NCBI GenBank assembly: GCA_016928495.1
Contig: JAFGKQ010000272.1
Span: forward strand, 1-5,593
Reading direction: 5' to 3'
From: Candidatus Fermentibacterales bacterium
GTDB taxonomy: Bacteria > Fermentibacterota > Fermentibacteria > Fermentibacterales > JAFGKQ01
DNA: 5,593 nt
This document shows, piece by piece, positions 1 through 5,593 of the stretch (position 1 is the stretch's first letter; every line of letters begins with the position of its first letter). The notes under the pieces were generated by a model. It ran no database searches and had not been told where the DNA came from. It saw nothing but the letters and a program-made list of their open reading frames with translations. Both the position numbers and the translations under genes were made by a program.

Positions 1-1656
1 GAAGGGGCCCTTGTCCAACAGCTTCCTGAACGTCACAACGGGCGCCCCCGAGTCGAGGTCGAGGTAGTTGCCCATGGGCTGGGTCAGCTCGCCGTCGGTG
101 TAGAGGGAGATGATGTAGGCCAGCGAGGGGTAGACCGACGGATGCTCGCGGATGACGGGCTCGAGATCGACGGTCTCGAACCTGCGGGAGGCTAGGTTGA
201 TGACGTCCAAGCTCTTCTGCGCGTAGCGCATGGTCTCCTCGGGGGTCACGTTGACCCGGAGCCCGGGTTGCCCGGGGCTTACCAGAACCGGGAAGTCGGA
301 TCCCGTGCGGTCCACGGCTCGCGTGCCCAGTCCGGTGACGAGCCTTATGATCCCGTCGTCCCTGCCTATCCTGGGAGACCACCTGAACTCGTTCTTGCTG
401 AAGGCCACCCCGGCGTAGGCGGGGAAGAAGTAGTCGCCGACCCGCCTTCCGACCACCTCCTGGATGAGGATGCCCATCTCCTCGTTGAAGTCCAGGAGCC
501 CCCTCTCGCGCCTGTACTCGATCGGATCGGGGCCGAACACGCTCGCGTAGACCTCCAGCACGGCATCCGCGAGGGCCTCGAGCCTCTCTTCCTTGGTTCC
601 GATATTGGCGACGAACAGGCTCCGGTACTTGCCGGCAAAGGATGCTCCTACGCTGTCCTCGAGGAGGCTGGAGGAACGCACGACCAGCGGGACCTCCCCC
701 AGATCGTCGAGAGCCATGCTCAGACCCGTCATGATCTCGGAGGGCAGCGCAGAGTTCTTGAAGATCTGCCTGAGGTAGACGTGTTCCTGCCTTATCTCGT
801 TGGGATCACAGTACTTGATCGATAGGAGCTCCTCCAGGGCGTTGTGATGGATGAACTCCAGGATGGCGTCCGAGGTGATGAACCAGGTCTTGGGCACCGT
901 GAGGTTGCGCAGGATGATGTTATCCTTCTGTGCCGCCTTCAGGATCATCTCCGCCCTCAGGAGGCCCGCGGCCTTCCCGCCCAGCTTCCCGTTCCCGGAG
1001 GGTGGACCGATCGTGCTCTCGAGCAGATCGCCGAACTTCAGCACGGTGACGAGCTTCTTCATCGTGTTGATGTAGAACAGGTCTTCGCTCAGGAACCGCC
1101 TGATGAGCGCCACTCTCAGGGCCACGCTGTCTTCGGGCGAGAGGTTCCTCTGGTTCTCGGGCAGCATCACGAACCGCTCCACGGCCTCGGAGATCTGGCT
1201 GAGGGACACGTCCCTCTTCTCGGCCGTCACGAACAGGAATCTGGTCGTCTCGTCTCTCAGCCAGATCCTGATCATGCTGGTCAACTGGTCCGAGGTGAGC
1301 TCTTCCTCGGCGATCCGGAAGACCTCGTCTACGACGCTCTCGAGCTGAGTCAGGTTGACCTTGCGGGCAGGCACGTTCTCGCCCACTGCCCCGGACTCGA
1401 AGTCGGCCATCTCGTGATCGGCAAGCCTGGACATCAGTTCACCGATCTTCCTCACGTTCCGCTTGAAGAGGTAGTTCATCATCTTGCGGCCGATGCGCTG
1501 CAGCATGATGGGGTTGGTGTCTCTCAGCAGGTTGATGATGACCTTCCACTCGCCCTCGATGTAGGGTGAGCCGGAAGGCGGGGCCGCTTCCTGCGGACTC
1601 CCGGTGCTGCAGCTCGACTCGCTCTTGGTGACCGGTCGCTGGGCTTCGTCAGTCAT
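1..1656 (-). CDS. PEP/pyruvate-binding (PEP synthase/PPDK N-terminal-like) protein, 3' end off the left edge
   Basis: Only the first 552 codons are in the window; the frame stays open to base 1. The N-terminal ~30 residues are polar and low-complexity. Residues ~35-215 are a mostly helical region I do not recognise. From ~residue 222 the protein matches the ATP-grasp nucleotide-binding domain of PEP synthase/pyruvate phosphate dikinase: KLGGKAAGLLRAE (224-236), VPKTWFIT (254-261), VVRSSSLLEDSVGASFAGKY (325-344), ILIQEVVG (396-403), and LVTGLGTRAVDR (439-450). K228 and R327 correspond to conserved nucleotide-contacting positions of the family. The phosphohistidine and PEP-binding domains, if present, lie beyond the edge, so a true PEP synthase cannot be told from a PPDK_N-domain relative of unknown substrate. 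The start is ATG at 1656, with AAGGGGGT (about 1667-1675) ~10 nt upstream. It lies 90 bp downstream of gdhA, same strand. Domain call confident, exact reaction not. Confidence 0.88.
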   Translation of the reverse strand, partial: MTDEAQRPVTKSESSCSTGSPQEAAPPSGSPYIEGEWKVIINLLRDTNPIMLQRIGRKMMNYLFKRNVRKIGELMSRLADHEMADFESGAVGENVPARKVNLTQLESVVDEVFRIAEEELTSDQLTSMIRIWLRDETTRFLFVTAEKRDVSLSQISEAVERFVMLPENQRNLSPEDSVALRVALIRRFLSEDLFYINTMKKLVTVLKFGDLLESTIGPPSGNGKLGGKAAGLLRAEMILKAAQKDNIILRNLTVPKTWFITSDAILEFIHHNALEELLSIKYCDPNEIRQEHVYLRQIFKNSALPSEIMTGLSMALDDLGEVPLVVRSSSLLEDSVGASFAGKYRSLFVANIGTKEERLEALADAVLEVYASVFGPDPIEYRRERGLLDFNEEMGILIQEVVGRRVGDYFFPAYAGVAFSKNEFRWSPRIGRDDGIIRLVTGLGTRAVDRTGSDFPVLVSPGQPGLRVNVTPEETMRYAQKSLDVINLASRRFETVDLEPVIREHPSVYPSLAYIISLYTDGELTQPMGNYLDLDSGAPVVTFRKLLDKGPF

Positions 1657-1666
1657 GAGGCGTGCT

Positions 1667-1675
1667 ACCCCCTTA
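1667..1675 (-). promoter_or_regulatory. Ribosome binding site of the PEP/pyruvate-binding gene
   Basis: On the minus strand AAGGGGGT sits about 10 nt before the ATG at 1656. It begins directly after the foot of the hairpin at 1678-1719, so that structure lies immediately 5' of the site without covering it. Confidence 0.6.
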
Positions 1676-1677
1676 TG

Positions 1678-1719
1678 CGTCGCGCCCCGGGCTGGTAATG
1701 GCACCGCCGGGGCGCGACG
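1678..1719 (-). terminator. GC-rich hairpin between gdhA and the PEP/pyruvate-binding gene (attenuator, processing site or weak terminator)
   Basis: The arms CGTCGCGCCCCGG (1678-1690) and CCGGGGCGCGACG (1707-1719) are perfect 13-bp complements. Inside the 16-nt loop, GGT (1694-1696) can pair with ACC (1703-1705). On the minus strand the hairpin starts 28 nt after the gdhA stop codon and ends a few nt before the next gene's Shine-Dalgarno. There is no T-run after the stem (it continues CATAAGGGGG), so it is not a canonical intrinsic terminator. It could reduce read-through, stabilise the gdhA 3' end, or mark an mRNA processing point. The structure is seen directly; the function is inferred. 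Confidence 0.5.
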
Positions 1720-1746
1720 TCAACGGGATGGGCCCGGTTGAGGAGT

Positions 1747-3030
1747 CTAGACCAGACCCCTCAGCCTTGCGGCGGTCGCGACCCTCTCGATCGCGATCAT
1801 GTAGGCCGCGTCGCGCATGTAGACGTTGCGGCGCTCTGCCAGATCCGCCACCGCGTGGAAGGCGTTGGTCATCTTGGTATCGAGCTTCGCGAGGACCTCG
1901 TCCTTCTCCCAGTAGTAGTTCATGTTGTTCTGGACCTGCTCGAAGTAGGAGCAGGTGACCCCGCCGGCATTGCACAGGAAGTCCGGGATGAGGAAGATGC
2001 CGCGCTTGCGGATGGCCTCGTCCGCCTCCGGAGTGGTGGGGCCGTTGGCACCCTCGGCGATGATCTTTGCTCGCTCGTGGATCTTGCCGACGTTGTCGGC
2101 GTTGACCTGGTTCTCCAGAGCGCCGGGCTGGAGGATGTCGGCCTCGGTCTCGATCCAGGCCTCGCCCGGCAGCTTCTCGTAACCGGCCTCGATCGCCTTC
2201 GCCGCATCGATCGTGCCATACCTGTCGGTGATGCTGGTGAGGAAGGCCATGTCGATGCCGTCCATCTTGCGGTAGGTATAGGAGGTCATGTCGGACTGGT
2301 CCCAGCAGGAGACGCAGACCACCTTTCCGCCGTACTTGATGAACAGGTCAGCGGCGTACTGGCTGACGTTCCCGAAACCCTGGCAGGCCATGGTAGTGTT
2401 CCTGATGTCCATTCCCATGCGCTTCAGGGCCTCGCGGACAGTGTAGATGACACCGTAGCCCGTGGCCTCTGTCCTGCCCAGGGAGCCTCCGACGCCCACG
2501 GGCTTCCCGGTTATCACGCCCGGGAACTTGCCTCCGGAGAGGGTCTCGTACTCGTCCATCATCCACAGCATGTGCTGGCCTGTTGTCATGACGTCAGGGG
2601 CCGGAACGTCCTGCACGGGGCCTATGTTCTTCCAGACCTGCCTGACCCATCCGCGGCATATCTGCTCCTGCTCCCTCATCGACAGCTCGTGGGGATCGCA
2701 GATGACTCCGCCCTTGCCGCCGCCCAGCGGTATGTCGACTACGGCGGTCTTCCAGGTCATCCAGGTGGCCAGTGCCCTTACGGTATCGGCGGTCTCCTGG
2801 GGGTGGAACCTTATGCCGCCCTTGCAGGGCCCGCGCACATCGCTGTGCTGTACCCTGAAGCCGCGGAAGACGCGGATGGACCCGTCATCCGTCCTGACGG
2901 GAATGGTGAAGTGGAACTCCCTCTGAGGCCAGCGAAGATACTCCTTTACCCCGGCATCGAGTCCGACCTGCTCCGCGACCCTGTCGAACTGGGCCTGGGC
3001 CATCTCGAACGGGTTGAAGCCCTTCTGCAC
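1747..3030 (-). CDS. gdhA: Glutamate dehydrogenase (Glu/Leu/Phe/Val dehydrogenase family)
   Basis: A complete 427-residue cytoplasmic enzyme, normal length for the hexameric GDH family, interconverting glutamate with 2-oxoglutarate and ammonia using NAD(P). The N-terminal substrate domain has KGGIRFHP (K70), WKTAVVDIPLGGGKGG (K94, K106) and PAPDV (catalytic-type D146). The Rossmann domain starts near 211 with CQGFGNVSQYAA. NAGGVTCSYFE (354-364) provides S361; K70 and S361 match the positions that hold the glutamate side-chain carboxylate in characterised GDHs, favouring glutamate over leucine, phenylalanine or valine. Coenzyme choice is unclear: the nucleotide motif ends in Ser (GFGNVS), and the segment after the second strand is CWDQSDMTS rather than the common Asp-containing turn. 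The start is GTG at 3030, with AGGAGGT (3036-3042) 5 nt away, and the protein begins MQKGFNPFEMA, typical for the family. It lies upstream of the PEP/pyruvate-binding gene on the same strand. Confidence 0.95.
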   Translation of the reverse strand: MQKGFNPFEMAQAQFDRVAEQVGLDAGVKEYLRWPQREFHFTIPVRTDDGSIRVFRGFRVQHSDVRGPCKGGIRFHPQETADTVRALATWMTWKTAVVDIPLGGGKGGVICDPHELSMREQEQICRGWVRQVWKNIGPVQDVPAPDVMTTGQHMLWMMDEYETLSGGKFPGVITGKPVGVGGSLGRTEATGYGVIYTVREALKRMGMDIRNTTMACQGFGNVSQYAADLFIKYGGKVVCVSCWDQSDMTSYTYRKMDGIDMAFLTSITDRYGTIDAAKAIEAGYEKLPGEAWIETEADILQPGALENQVNADNVGKIHERAKIIAEGANGPTTPEADEAIRKRGIFLIPDFLCNAGGVTCSYFEQVQNNMNYYWEKDEVLAKLDTKMTNAFHAVADLAERRNVYMRDAAYMIAIERVATAARLRGLV

Positions 3031-3255
3031 TTCAGACCTCCTGATGGTGGCTGTGGCGCAACCTGAGTCGGCCGTTAGCTGATAGATACGGAATACACAT
3101 CCTCGCTGGCGGGTAGCCCATTCCGCCTGACGGAACGAGGATAGGGAAGATAGTCTGTCTCAACGAGACCCGCAAGCTGAGAAGCCCGATTGCCGCTCTT
3201 GACAGGGCCGCCGATCGGAGAGAGAAAAGCACGGGCCCCGAAGGAAGGGAGTTTC
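3031..3255. promoter_or_regulatory. Divergent intergenic region between gdhA and the TPR gene
   Basis: 225 bp that must hold both divergent promoters. A TTGACA (3199-3204, plus) resembles a -35 box, but no convincing -10 lies 16-18 bp downstream. Two short inverted repeats are visible: TTCCG-5 nt-CGGAA (3121-3135) and GTCTC-AAC-GAGAC (3157-3169). They could be operators or small hairpins, but 5-bp arms are weak evidence. No ORF in it looks coding. The gdhA ribosome binding site is at 3036-3042. Confidence 0.4.
3036..3042 (-). promoter_or_regulatory. Ribosome binding site of gdhA (decides the GTG start)
   Basis: A full AGGAGGT on the minus strand, 5 nt before the GTG at 3030. No in-frame ATG gives a better family match, so this site supports the non-ATG start. 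Confidence 0.8.
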
Positions 3256-4182
3256 ATGCCTGGCGAAGAGGAGAAGACTCCCGACCCGTCCCCCGAGGAG
3301 CCCTCCGGAGACAGCGGGAAGGCCCCGGTGGCCTCGTCATCGGAACCGGCCTGGGACGAGCTGACTGCTCTCGCCAGCTTCACCCGCGGCAAGAGGATAC
3401 GGCTTGGCCTGCTCGGACGCTTGACTACGTCCTCTCCGGAGATCCGCCTGGTGGATGGCTTCAACTTCCTGATAAGGGGTGTGCCGGGCAGGGCCATGCG
3501 CTACCTTCGACAGGCCGCCTCTATCTCCGACGCTCTCTTCCTTACCGGCTTCCTGGCCCTGAGGACGGGAGACCTCGACTCCGCCGAGAAGGACCTGACG
3601 GCCGCGCCGCTGGCGAGGGGGGGTATCGGGCGTTACTTCCGCAAGTACGGCTTCGAGCCCGAGCTCCGCGTCGCTCTTCGCCACGGCGCGAGCTGCGCCG
3701 TCCCGCTCGACAGGTTCGGCTCCATGCTGATGCTGGTGGAGATCAGCAGCAGGAAGCCTGACATCGACAGGGCGATCTCGATTGCCGGGGACGTATGCAG
3801 ACTGGCCCCGGAGCTCCTGCTGGCCAGGGTTATGCTGGCGGAAACCCTGGACCTGGCGGGCAGGAGCGACAAGGACACGCTCGAGGAGGTCGTGAAGCTC
3901 GGGAGGGCCGTCGAGAACAGGGGGGCGGTCCACGCTGCGATGCTCTACTACAAGGGCAAGGCCCTGCGGAAACTGGGCATCTACACCGCGGCCCTGGAGA
4001 CGCTCGAGACGGCCATGATGAACCCGAAGCTCCGGACAGAGGAGCTCATCAAGGCTGCCACCTACGAGCACGCGCTGGCCCTGGAGCAGTCGGGCAACAA
4101 GCTGGAGTCCAGGAAGCAGCTCGAGCACCTCTACGCCGAGGACCCGGAGTACGAGGACATCAGGAAGCGTCTGCAGCTCTGA
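3256..4182 (+). CDS. Tetratricopeptide-repeat (TPR) protein of unknown function
   Basis: A 308-residue protein with no signal peptide or membrane segment, so probably cytoplasmic. Residues 1-33 are acidic, Pro/Ser/Glu-rich and likely disordered. Residues ~65-308 are helical with TPR-like pairs of small and aromatic residues. The clearest are ALFLTGFLALRTGDLDSAEKD (93-113, split here by helix turn), AMLYYKGKALRKLGIYTAAL (228-247) and ATYEHALALEQSGNKLESRK (268-287), followed by a YAEDPEYED tail (293-301) of the kind that often ends bacterial TPR arrays. The middle (~140-220) is a degenerate TPR or a different helical domain. I chose the ATG at 3256 because AAGGAAGGGAG (3241-3251) precedes it. 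A TTG at 3190 would add 22 residues but has no ribosome binding site. TPR arrays are protein-binding scaffolds; the partner cannot be inferred. It is divergent from gdhA and convergent with nfo, so transcribed alone. Confidence 0.85.
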   Translation: MPGEEEKTPDPSPEEPSGDSGKAPVASSSEPAWDELTALASFTRGKRIRLGLLGRLTTSSPEIRLVDGFNFLIRGVPGRAMRYLRQAASISDALFLTGFLALRTGDLDSAEKDLTAAPLARGGIGRYFRKYGFEPELRVALRHGASCAVPLDRFGSMLMLVEISSRKPDIDRAISIAGDVCRLAPELLLARVMLAETLDLAGRSDKDTLEEVVKLGRAVENRGAVHAAMLYYKGKALRKLGIYTAALETLETAMMNPKLRTEELIKAATYEHALALEQSGNKLESRKQLEHLYAEDPEYEDIRKRLQL

Positions 4183-4302: not shown

Positions 4303-5124
4303 CTACGCGCGCCTGCGTATCCTCCTTGCGTCCCTCAGCCTGTCCCGATCCGTCCCGGGAGTCTCCACGATGCCAACCGCGTGCTGAAGCCGGGGAAGCC
4401 TGCACAACGCGGCAAGCGGGCCGACACCGATGAGGCCGCAGCCCACCTCCTCGTGCCTGTCGGACTTGCTTCCCAGATCGCTCCTCGAGTCGTTGAGGTG
4501 AAGTGCAAGCACCCGCTCGAGGCCGACAGCCCGGTCAAGGAGCCCGGCGGCGTGCTCCATCGCGGGCACGGAGGAAAGGTCGTAGCCTGCAGCAAAGGCG
4601 TGCGCCGTGTCGAAGCAGACGCCCGTCCTGCGCGGTAACCCGACCAGGTCGAGCATGCCGGCCAGGTCTTCGAGCCTGGAGCAGATACCGGTGCCCTGCC
4701 CCGCGGAGTTCTCCAACAGCACGCCTACCTCCCCGGGGCAGTCCATCAGGGCGCTCCTGAGACGCTTTGCGGCAGAGCTCAGTCCGGCTCTGACGCCCCT
4801 TCCGAGATGCGAGCCGGGATGCAGCACGATCCAGTGTATGCCCAGAAAGCCGGATCTCTCCAGCTCCTGCCTGATAGCCATCTCGGAGAGGCGCACCACG
4901 TCGGGCCTCGAGGACGCCAGGTTGATCAGGTAGGAGGCATGGGAGAAAACGGGGATGCCAAGGCTGGCGGCGGCTCCCTCCTCGACGGGGTCCAGCTTCC
5001 TGCCCGCCCACTGCCGCTGGTTGGAGGTGAAAATCTGGATCGCCTTGCAGCGCAGTTCCTTCGCCCTGGCAGCGATCGAGAGCATCCCCCCGGAGGAGCT
5101 GAGATGAATGCCGATCCTGATCAT
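4303..5124 (-). CDS. nfo: Deoxyribonuclease IV (apurinic/apyrimidinic endonuclease, endonuclease IV)
   Basis: A 273-residue protein of normal family length (E. coli Nfo is ~285) that would cleave DNA 5' of abasic sites and process damaged 3' ends in base excision repair. It is a zinc-dependent TIM barrel, and all nine expected ligands are present: H62 (SHASYLINLA), H102 (LHPGSH), E138 (LLENSAGQG), D172 and H175 (CFDTAHAFAAG), H209 (LHLNDS), D222 and H224 (DRHEEVG), E254 (VETPG). GIHLSSSGG (5-13) and IFTSNQRQWAGR (31-42) are typical of the N-terminus. The start is the ATG at 5124, because the family alignment begins at MIRIGIHLS. There is no Shine-Dalgarno directly before it: a mobile repeat begins 2-4 bp upstream. 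The frame stays open upstream through the repeat (GTG at 5268), but those 48 residues are repeat-derived and should not be counted. The C-terminus is Arg-rich (RDARRIRRRA). Confidence 0.94.
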   Translation of the reverse strand: MIRIGIHLSSSGGMLSIAARAKELRCKAIQIFTSNQRQWAGRKLDPVEEGAAASLGIPVFSHASYLINLASSRPDVVRLSEMAIRQELERSGFLGIHWIVLHPGSHLGRGVRAGLSSAAKRLRSALMDCPGEVGVLLENSAGQGTGICSRLEDLAGMLDLVGLPRRTGVCFDTAHAFAAGYDLSSVPAMEHAAGLLDRAVGLERVLALHLNDSRSDLGSKSDRHEEVGCGLIGVGPLAALCRLPRLQHAVGIVETPGTDRDRLRDARRIRRRA

Positions 5125-5125
5125 T

Positions 5126-5238
5126 ACGGGGACATAACACTTATCTCCAAGGCTCGGTTGGAGAGCGTGCTCCGAAATCCACTCAACCGTACTCTTCCAT
5201 CTGAGAGTCGCAGTGCGTCCGCATCCCTTGGAGATAAG
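5126..5238. repeat. MITE-like repeat copy A1, right end missing
   Basis: From GGGGACA at 5128 to GGAGATAAG ending at 5238, this copy aligns without gaps to copy A2 at a fixed offset of 128 bp; I count about 10 differences in 111 bp. The left terminal repeat (ACGGGGACATAACACTTATC, 5126-5145) is intact, but the right one stops after GGAGATAAG and then changes to GGGAGATATGGAG, so roughly the last 14 terminal bases are lost. The left end lies against the nfo start codon. It is non-coding although open in some frames. Confidence 0.85.
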
Positions 5239-5248
5239 GGGAGATATG

Positions 5249-5385
5249 GAGATATGGGGACACAACACTTATCTCCAAAGCTCGGCTGGAGAGCGTGCTC
5301 TGAAATCCACCCAAGCGCACTCTTCCATCTGAGAGTCGCAGTGCGTCCGCTTCCCCAGGAGATAAGTGTTATGTCCCCATATCTC
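5249..5385. mobile_element. MITE-like non-autonomous element copy A2, intact, with 28-bp terminal inverted repeats
   Basis: A 137-bp element whose ends, 5249-5276 and 5358-5385, are inverted complements over 28 bp with one mismatch (5263/5371); each end carries ATATGGGGACA outside and AACACTTATCTCC inside. The interior has smaller dyads: AGAGC-GT-GCTCT (5290-5301) and ACTCT-8 nt-AGAGT (5319-5336). A 32-bp core (5319-5350) is identical in copy A1 (5191-5222). It encodes no transposase, so any movement would need an enzyme supplied elsewhere. Size, terminal repeats and multiple copies fit a MITE or a REP/BIME-like element; single-strand folding into one long hairpin would suit a REP-associated tyrosine transposase, but that link is inference. 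Confidence 0.8.
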
Positions 5386-5400
5386 ATGTCCCCATATCTC
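5371..5400. repeat. Perfect tandem duplication of a 15-bp unit at the right end of copy A2
   Basis: ATGTCCCCATATCTC occurs at 5371-5385 and again, without change, at 5386-5400. The first unit is the outer end of A2's right terminal repeat, so the second extends the element outward. A related but imperfect doubling (GAGATATGGAGATATGGGG, 5241-5259) is present on the left side of A2. Confidence 0.85.
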
Positions 5401-5406
5401 CGTGAC

Positions 5407-5593
5407 TCACCGGTCCGGCCTCCGAGATAAGTGTTGTGTCCCCATAACTGCGAGGAAGTGGGCCACGTTCTCCAGCGAGGCCTTCGCGAGCTGCTCCCTC
5501 ACTTGGGCCAGTTGCTTCCAGATGTCCGGAGCGGCCGCCCAGGCAAGGTCGACCACAGCCGCGGCCCTGGGGATGGTCCCCTCGGAGAGCCTC
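5407..5593 (-). CDS. C-terminal fragment of an unrecognised gene, ending inside repeat sequence
   Basis: The last 61 codons of a minus-strand frame that enters from the right edge and stops at TGA (5409-5407). Residues read from the edge, RLSEGTIPRAAAVVDLAWAA, then APDIWKQLAQVREQLAKASL and ENVAHFLAV, form a plausible amphipathic helical domain with many Ala, Leu and charged residues; the alternative frames give Gly/Arg-rich sequence typical of shadows. The final residues, MGTQHLSRRPDR, are encoded by the solo terminal repeat and adjacent bases, so the native C-terminus seems replaced by repeat sequence. No family recognised. It lies upstream of nfo on the same strand, with the repeat cluster between them. 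It could also be a decayed gene remnant. Confidence 0.5.
   Translation of the reverse strand, partial: RLSEGTIPRAAAVVDLAWAAAPDIWKQLAQVREQLAKASLENVAHFLAVMGTQHLSRRPDR
5424..5446. repeat. Solo terminal inverted repeat of the same family
   Basis: GAGATAAGTGTTGTGTCCCC followed by ATA matches the right end of A2 over 23 bp with one difference (G for A at the position that also varies between the two ends of A2). No element interior is attached. It overlaps the coding end of the gene at the right edge. Confidence 0.75.

Follow-up and report, generated by a model that had tools for sequence, protein, structure and literature searches.

Probable non-autonomous doublets of a TIRtron-like element at gene borders of a Fermentibacterales draft genome

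TIRtrons, as described in the parts of Di Nocera et al. 2013 (PMC3733652) accessible to us, carry a RAYT-like gene within long inverted ends that contain the motif GGGGWSAS, and are dispersed as singles, dimers, and groups; the same parts report that the termini of GTAG REPs often provide the stop codon TAG. Most TIRYTs fall into subclass 2.1 of the TnpAY1 transposases (Quentin et al. 2018, PMC6006769). In REPINs, the length of the spacer and its capacity to form a hairpin outweigh its sequence (Bertels and Rainey 2011, PMC3116915). Here, we describe a repeat cluster at positions 5125-5449 of a bacterial contig, which very probably consists of non-autonomous, REPIN-like doublets of a TIRtron (Y1, HuH/Tyr; the RAYT/TIRYT kind) that are mobilized in trans.

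The window, i.e., the whole stretch of 5,593 nucleotides that was analyzed, is contig C34 of a Fermentibacterales draft genome (2.31 Mb, 337 contigs, 81% complete); among the matches listed, its closest named relative is a Fermentibacteraceae bacterium of the same order. Ordinary genes occupy positions 1-4182 (a PPDK_N-domain protein, a Glu/Leu/Phe/Val-type dehydrogenase, and a TPR-like protein). The cluster and its neighbor are composed as follows:

4303-5124, minus strand: flanking AP endonuclease family 2 (endonuclease IV-like) gene, Pfam AP_endonuc_2
5125-5149, plus strand: left end of A1, TACGGGGACATAACACTTATCTCCA, abutting the ATG of the endonuclease IV-like gene (CAT at 5122-5124)
5125-5238, plus strand: A1, a doublet copy whose right end is truncated after GGAGATAAG
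5228-5238, minus strand: remnant of the right end of A1, TTGGAGATAAG
5249-5385, plus strand: A2, a complete doublet with 28-bp inverted ends and an 81-bp interior
5249-5276, plus strand: left end of A2, GAGATATGGGGACACAACACTTATCTCC
5358-5385, minus strand: right end of A2, reverse complement GAGATATGGGGACATAACACTTATCTCC
5386-5400, no strand given: tandem duplicate of the outer half of the A2 right end (ATGTCCCCATATCTC at 5371-5385 and at 5386-5400)
5423-5449, minus strand: third right end, GTTATGGGGACACAACACTTATCTC on the minus strand

The endonuclease gene, whose start codon abuts the cluster, is a neighbor and lies outside the element. An earlier, sequence-only reading had described A1 and A2 as MITE-like copies without coding content, about 91% identical without gaps over 111 bp, sharing a 32-bp core, and with near-perfect 28-bp inverted ends on A2. 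This description holds well: A1 (5125-5238) and positions 5253-5366 of A2 are identical at 103 of 114 sites (~90%) without gaps, the 11 differences are scattered substitutions, the core at 5191-5222 is exactly common to both copies, and the ends of A2 (5249-5385) are complementary at 27 of 28 positions. A2 folds as a single long hairpin (z = -7.8 against shuffles). Three features had been overlooked, i.e., the truncated right end of A1, the tandem end duplicate, and the end at 5423-5449. The last of these pairs with the left end of A1 (5124-5153 with 5418-5447, 87%) to form an outer pair, and the gene coming from the right runs into it. An outer-half end duplication of 15 bp is also present on contig C299 (locus L012, about 943-972), where GTGTCCCCTTATCTC occurs twice; these duplications (5371-5400 in the window, and that on C299) are perhaps the footprint of nested insertion or of an abortive reaction. 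A1 and A2 had been taken for separate or old insertions. Since they are adjacent and have the only related interiors, local duplication of one doublet is the simpler and most likely origin. Comparison with relatives yielded no empty site for the window, as the neighbor that precedes nfo here is not conserved beside nfo there; nor was transposition or excision observed for any copy. Viral contigs gave no match.

The whole 2.3-Mb draft genome was searched with the end pattern GGGGACANAACACTTATCTC, allowing at most three mismatches, and the reversed pattern was used as a control. The ends match 39 times versus 0 for the control, far from the "two-copy family" proposed earlier. When A2 itself was used as a query against the host genome, a search that the sequence-only reading had suggested, its interior matched only A1, whereas its 24-28 bp ends returned many matches. 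Most end matches form inverted pairs, amounting to about 14 doublets without transposase, in addition to a few single ends (C271, C265, C321). Inverted pairs are found on C9, C301 (two, nested), C299, C71 (two), C205, C232 (two), C133, C2, C158, C74, and C90, and in the window, and ends are clustered on C34, C133, and C301. Measured from GGGG to CCCC, 8 of 14 doublets are 109-123 bp long and four are 59-72 bp. The left and right ends of the same doublet resemble each other more than expected by chance, with 12 mismatches in total between the 20-mers of the 14 pairs versus 25.3 expected when the right ends are shuffled (P = 0.0004). Apart from A1/A2, the interiors of the pairs show no mutual similarity beyond extra end copies, and the C205 interior occurs only once in the genome. 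A common interior body was therefore rejected as the mark of the family: A1 and A2 are related, as first proposed, but no other copy has their body, and the ends alone define the family.

Whole doublets fold with z-scores of -7.8 to -10.4. The interiors alone give a weak overall structure signal (Stouffer z -2.9), which comes mainly from a second family described below. For single ends, the folding energies are 0 to -2.5 kcal/mol, and GTAG is absent; these energies rule out a single-end hairpin (GAGATAAG..CTTATCTC) that had been suggested by eye. An integron attC-like reading was also set aside, given a Y1 transposase between identical ends and no cassette arrays seen.

A REP-associated-type tyrosine transposase within the same ends, which the sequence-only reading had proposed to look for, is present in the same genome. 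At C90:4181-4996, identical 24-bp inverted ends, both containing the GGGGWSAS motif as GGGGACAC, surround an intact gene of 238 aa with a Y1_Tnp match (PF01797). The genome contains both a dispersed family of ends and a transposase with identical ends. The Pfam score, 23.0 bits, equals the cut-off, and the NCBIfam model of REP-associated tyrosine transposases gives E = 3.7e-17 and 62.6 bits, under its cut-off of 80. The HuH motif (NHVH; H72-x-H74) and the catalytic Tyr (Y131) are invariant in 14 aligned proteins. The best PDB match of the AlphaFold model (pLDDT 83) is 4er8 (E 3e-7), the structure of a RAYT in complex with a REP hairpin, followed by IS608 and ISDra2. Judged by its motifs and predicted structure, the C90 protein is a Y1 transposase of the RAYT/TIRYT kind. 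Its last residues, EISDVSP, are encoded by the transposon end. A point against the TIRtron reading of the cluster is that the ends of the C90 transposase, the sole one found with such ends, belong to a CAT subtype and the window copies to a CAA/TAA subtype. Because the draft genome is only 81% complete, a second cognate transposase may be absent from the assembly.

A second RAYT of 359 aa is encoded on C225 (locus L019, 1050-2310) within its own 45-bp inverted ends, which have 20 matches in the genome. Four of the six doublets of this family are exactly 148-149 bp long, and their interiors do not align. The C225 family independently repeats the pattern, with ends that match, lengths that cluster, and interiors that are unrelated. 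Reading inwards from its ends, each of the three frames has a stop codon (+10, +14, +24).

Transposases are paired with their ends across genomes as well. Several related transposases of the same order have distinct inverted ends of their own, and one such end family of relatives (CAGTGCCACCCACYAWTAAAA) is present at 4-36 copies per genome in five relatives' genomes and at 0 copies here; many of its listed copies are far from any other. Beyond the order, RAYTs of Omnitrophota and Aminicenantes, 46-48% identical to that of C90, carry GGGGACACA... ends. GGGGACACAWCACTTAATTATT adjoins both transposases, and was seen on one flank only of the Aminicenantes gene. A more distant Syntrophaceae transposase has GGGGACACAATACTAAATTATT beside the gene, also an end of the GGGGACACA... 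type. In Aminicenantes (locus L059, 983-1034), the same ends enclose an interior of 12 bp, and a T8 run comes after this doublet, which would be an ideal intrinsic terminator.

The outer borders of the ends frequently coincide with the ends of host genes. A host stop codon was found at 14 of 31 outer borders versus 2.8% at control positions (P = 4e-14). The count is ORF-based and takes in stops that lie at -10 to +4 and close an open frame of 100 codons or more. This P value is only indicative, because the interval was picked once the pattern was known and because one case among the 14 (C232 right) is probably spurious. Several of these gene ends are natural, since the flanking acetate kinase, thioredoxin, and DUF554 genes match their Pfam models to the end of the model or nearly so. 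In the convergent pair on C74, both host genes end in ..LN-stop. On C71, a tRNA-Ser gene (locus L013, 3697-3781) ends two bases from a doublet. The effect is not universal: for the other end family of relatives, border stops were seen in no more than 4 of 42 cases.

Read outwards, the right end contains GGAG-N7-ATG in the CAT subtype, with TTG in the other subtype. The right-end start on C90 shares its frame with a ygiQ-type radical SAM gene (C90:4980-6500, MCPHN-WLPTT), in which the Pfam match begins at residue 6 and the start codon and first five residues come from the transposon end and replace the native start of relatives; these have their own Met about seven residues ahead of the conserved LPV/LPI. 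A metallophosphoesterase gene on C232 (C232:7965-8894), for which no close homologue was found in the order, starts with MCPHN.. from one doublet and ends with ..QISDVSP-stop inside a second doublet. On C133, the right-end start reads into a protein with a signal-peptide-like start. The supply of start codons by such ends was not found in those portions of the literature on these repeats that were accessible to us, a targeted search included. A tentative idea, which we regard as possible but rather doubtful, is that the ends mimic an operon junction (stops at the outer edge, GGAG-N7-start outwards), that the transposase or selection places them precisely at stops, tRNA 3' ends, and starts, and that mobile DNA thereby re-caps genes at both termini, for which the metallophosphoesterase gene on C232 would be an example.

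Several other origins could be envisaged for such repeats. Inverted ends of 28 bp and noncoding copies of about 110-120 bp would suit an ordinary MITE belonging to an insertion sequence of the double-strand (DDE) type, whose transposase makes target-site duplications. This origin is strongly disfavored and highly improbable: a Y1 enzyme is the only transposase that was found with such ends, about 12 doublets inspected have no consistent direct repeat flanking them, their edge tetramers coincide in few copies only, coincidences that can be put down to the AT-rich edges, and their interiors are unrelated, whereas ordinary MITE families have common bodies. The diversity of the interiors would rather be expected if the doublets were immobile, single ends having reached gene borders one by one through insertion or copying, and the "interior" being no more than bracketed host intergenic DNA. 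The existence of single ends (C271, C265, C321) and the host genes that abut both outer sides in several convergent pairs, e.g., on C74, point in the same direction. However, the two arms match beyond chance, including the nested pair on C301 and the CTTAATTC variant common to both arms on C158, and lengths cluster at 109-123 bp in the first family and at 148-149 bp in the second, which is unexpected of host spacers; we consider independent insertion of single ends unlikely.

The location of many copies at gene 3' ends, often between convergent genes and once abutting the 3' end of tRNA-Ser, together with the very stable hairpins into which the doublets would fold, might instead suggest a signal maintained by the host in RNA or transcription (a 3'-end hairpin, a terminator, or an mRNA stabilizer) and not a mobile element. 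Such an origin is quite unlikely: the same ends occur on a complete transposon, the ends are specific to their transposases from genome to genome, the doublets of this genome are not followed by a T-run, and Rfam gave 0 matches in the window at gathering score. A role as a host signal could still be a secondary function of the doublets.

For doublets of a TIRtron mobilized in trans, we infer the mobility, the cutting and insertion, and the cause of the exact placement at gene borders as follows. The C90 transposase would act in trans on the doublets that have no transposase of their own. In a single-stranded state, the two inverted ends would pair into a long hairpin, and the enzyme would recognize the conserved ends, cut nearby, and join the ends at a new site. 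As the interiors have no detectable common ancestry, it is from the matched arms and similar lengths that we infer movement of a doublet as a unit. The interiors may be unrelated because transposition keeps only the ends and the approximate length, so that everything between them would drift to unrelatedness, in line with what Bertels and Rainey described for REPIN spacers. Near-neutrality at gene borders would explain why copies persist: their outer edge would provide a stop codon or keep the existing one, and the right end, in its outward reading, might offer a new ribosome-binding site and start.

These findings provide a new transposase-repeat pairing from an uncultured phylum and enlarge the TIRYT branch of single-strand transposases, which has been little studied. 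With two such systems in one genome, which agree in having ends that match, a length that clusters, and interiors that are unrelated, nature provides a test of the enzyme's requirements. The persistence of short repeats in compact genomes could be explained from the gene-border pattern, in a way open to testing: the repeats would rebuild the stops and starts that they would otherwise destroy.

The sequence-only reading recognized no named family. The kind to which the repeat belongs has already been described in the TIRtron/TIRYT and REPIN literature. Like TIRtrons, this system has a RAYT-like gene (on C90) in long inverted ends with GGGGWSAS, conserved catalytic HuH and Tyr residues with a RAYT fold in the C90 model, and ends dispersed as singles, doublets, and clusters. 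It differs in end sequence and phylum, and in the fine structure at gene borders, including the supply of starts, which is not described for TIRtrons in the accessible parts of PMC3733652. By motifs (NHVH, FQ, and Y...NP) and length (238 aa), the C90 protein resembles TnpAY1 subclass 2.1, although its Y motif is YAHQNP instead of YIELNP or Y[IV]HLNP. The doublets share with REPINs two inverted conserved ends, a clustered length, a poorly conserved spacer, and a hairpin formed by the whole unit, but their ends are without the GTAG/GGAG-tagged REP hairpin (0 to -2.5 kcal/mol) and there are about 14 copies versus hundreds. As with GTAG REPs, the ends lie downstream of genes and often supply the stop codon; in contrast, single ends here have no stable fold, the stops arise from TAA or from T+AG at the edge, and some ends also give a start codon. 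The family adds an example to a kind of mobile DNA that is already known, and its notable trait is the exact position at gene ends with the supply of stops and starts.
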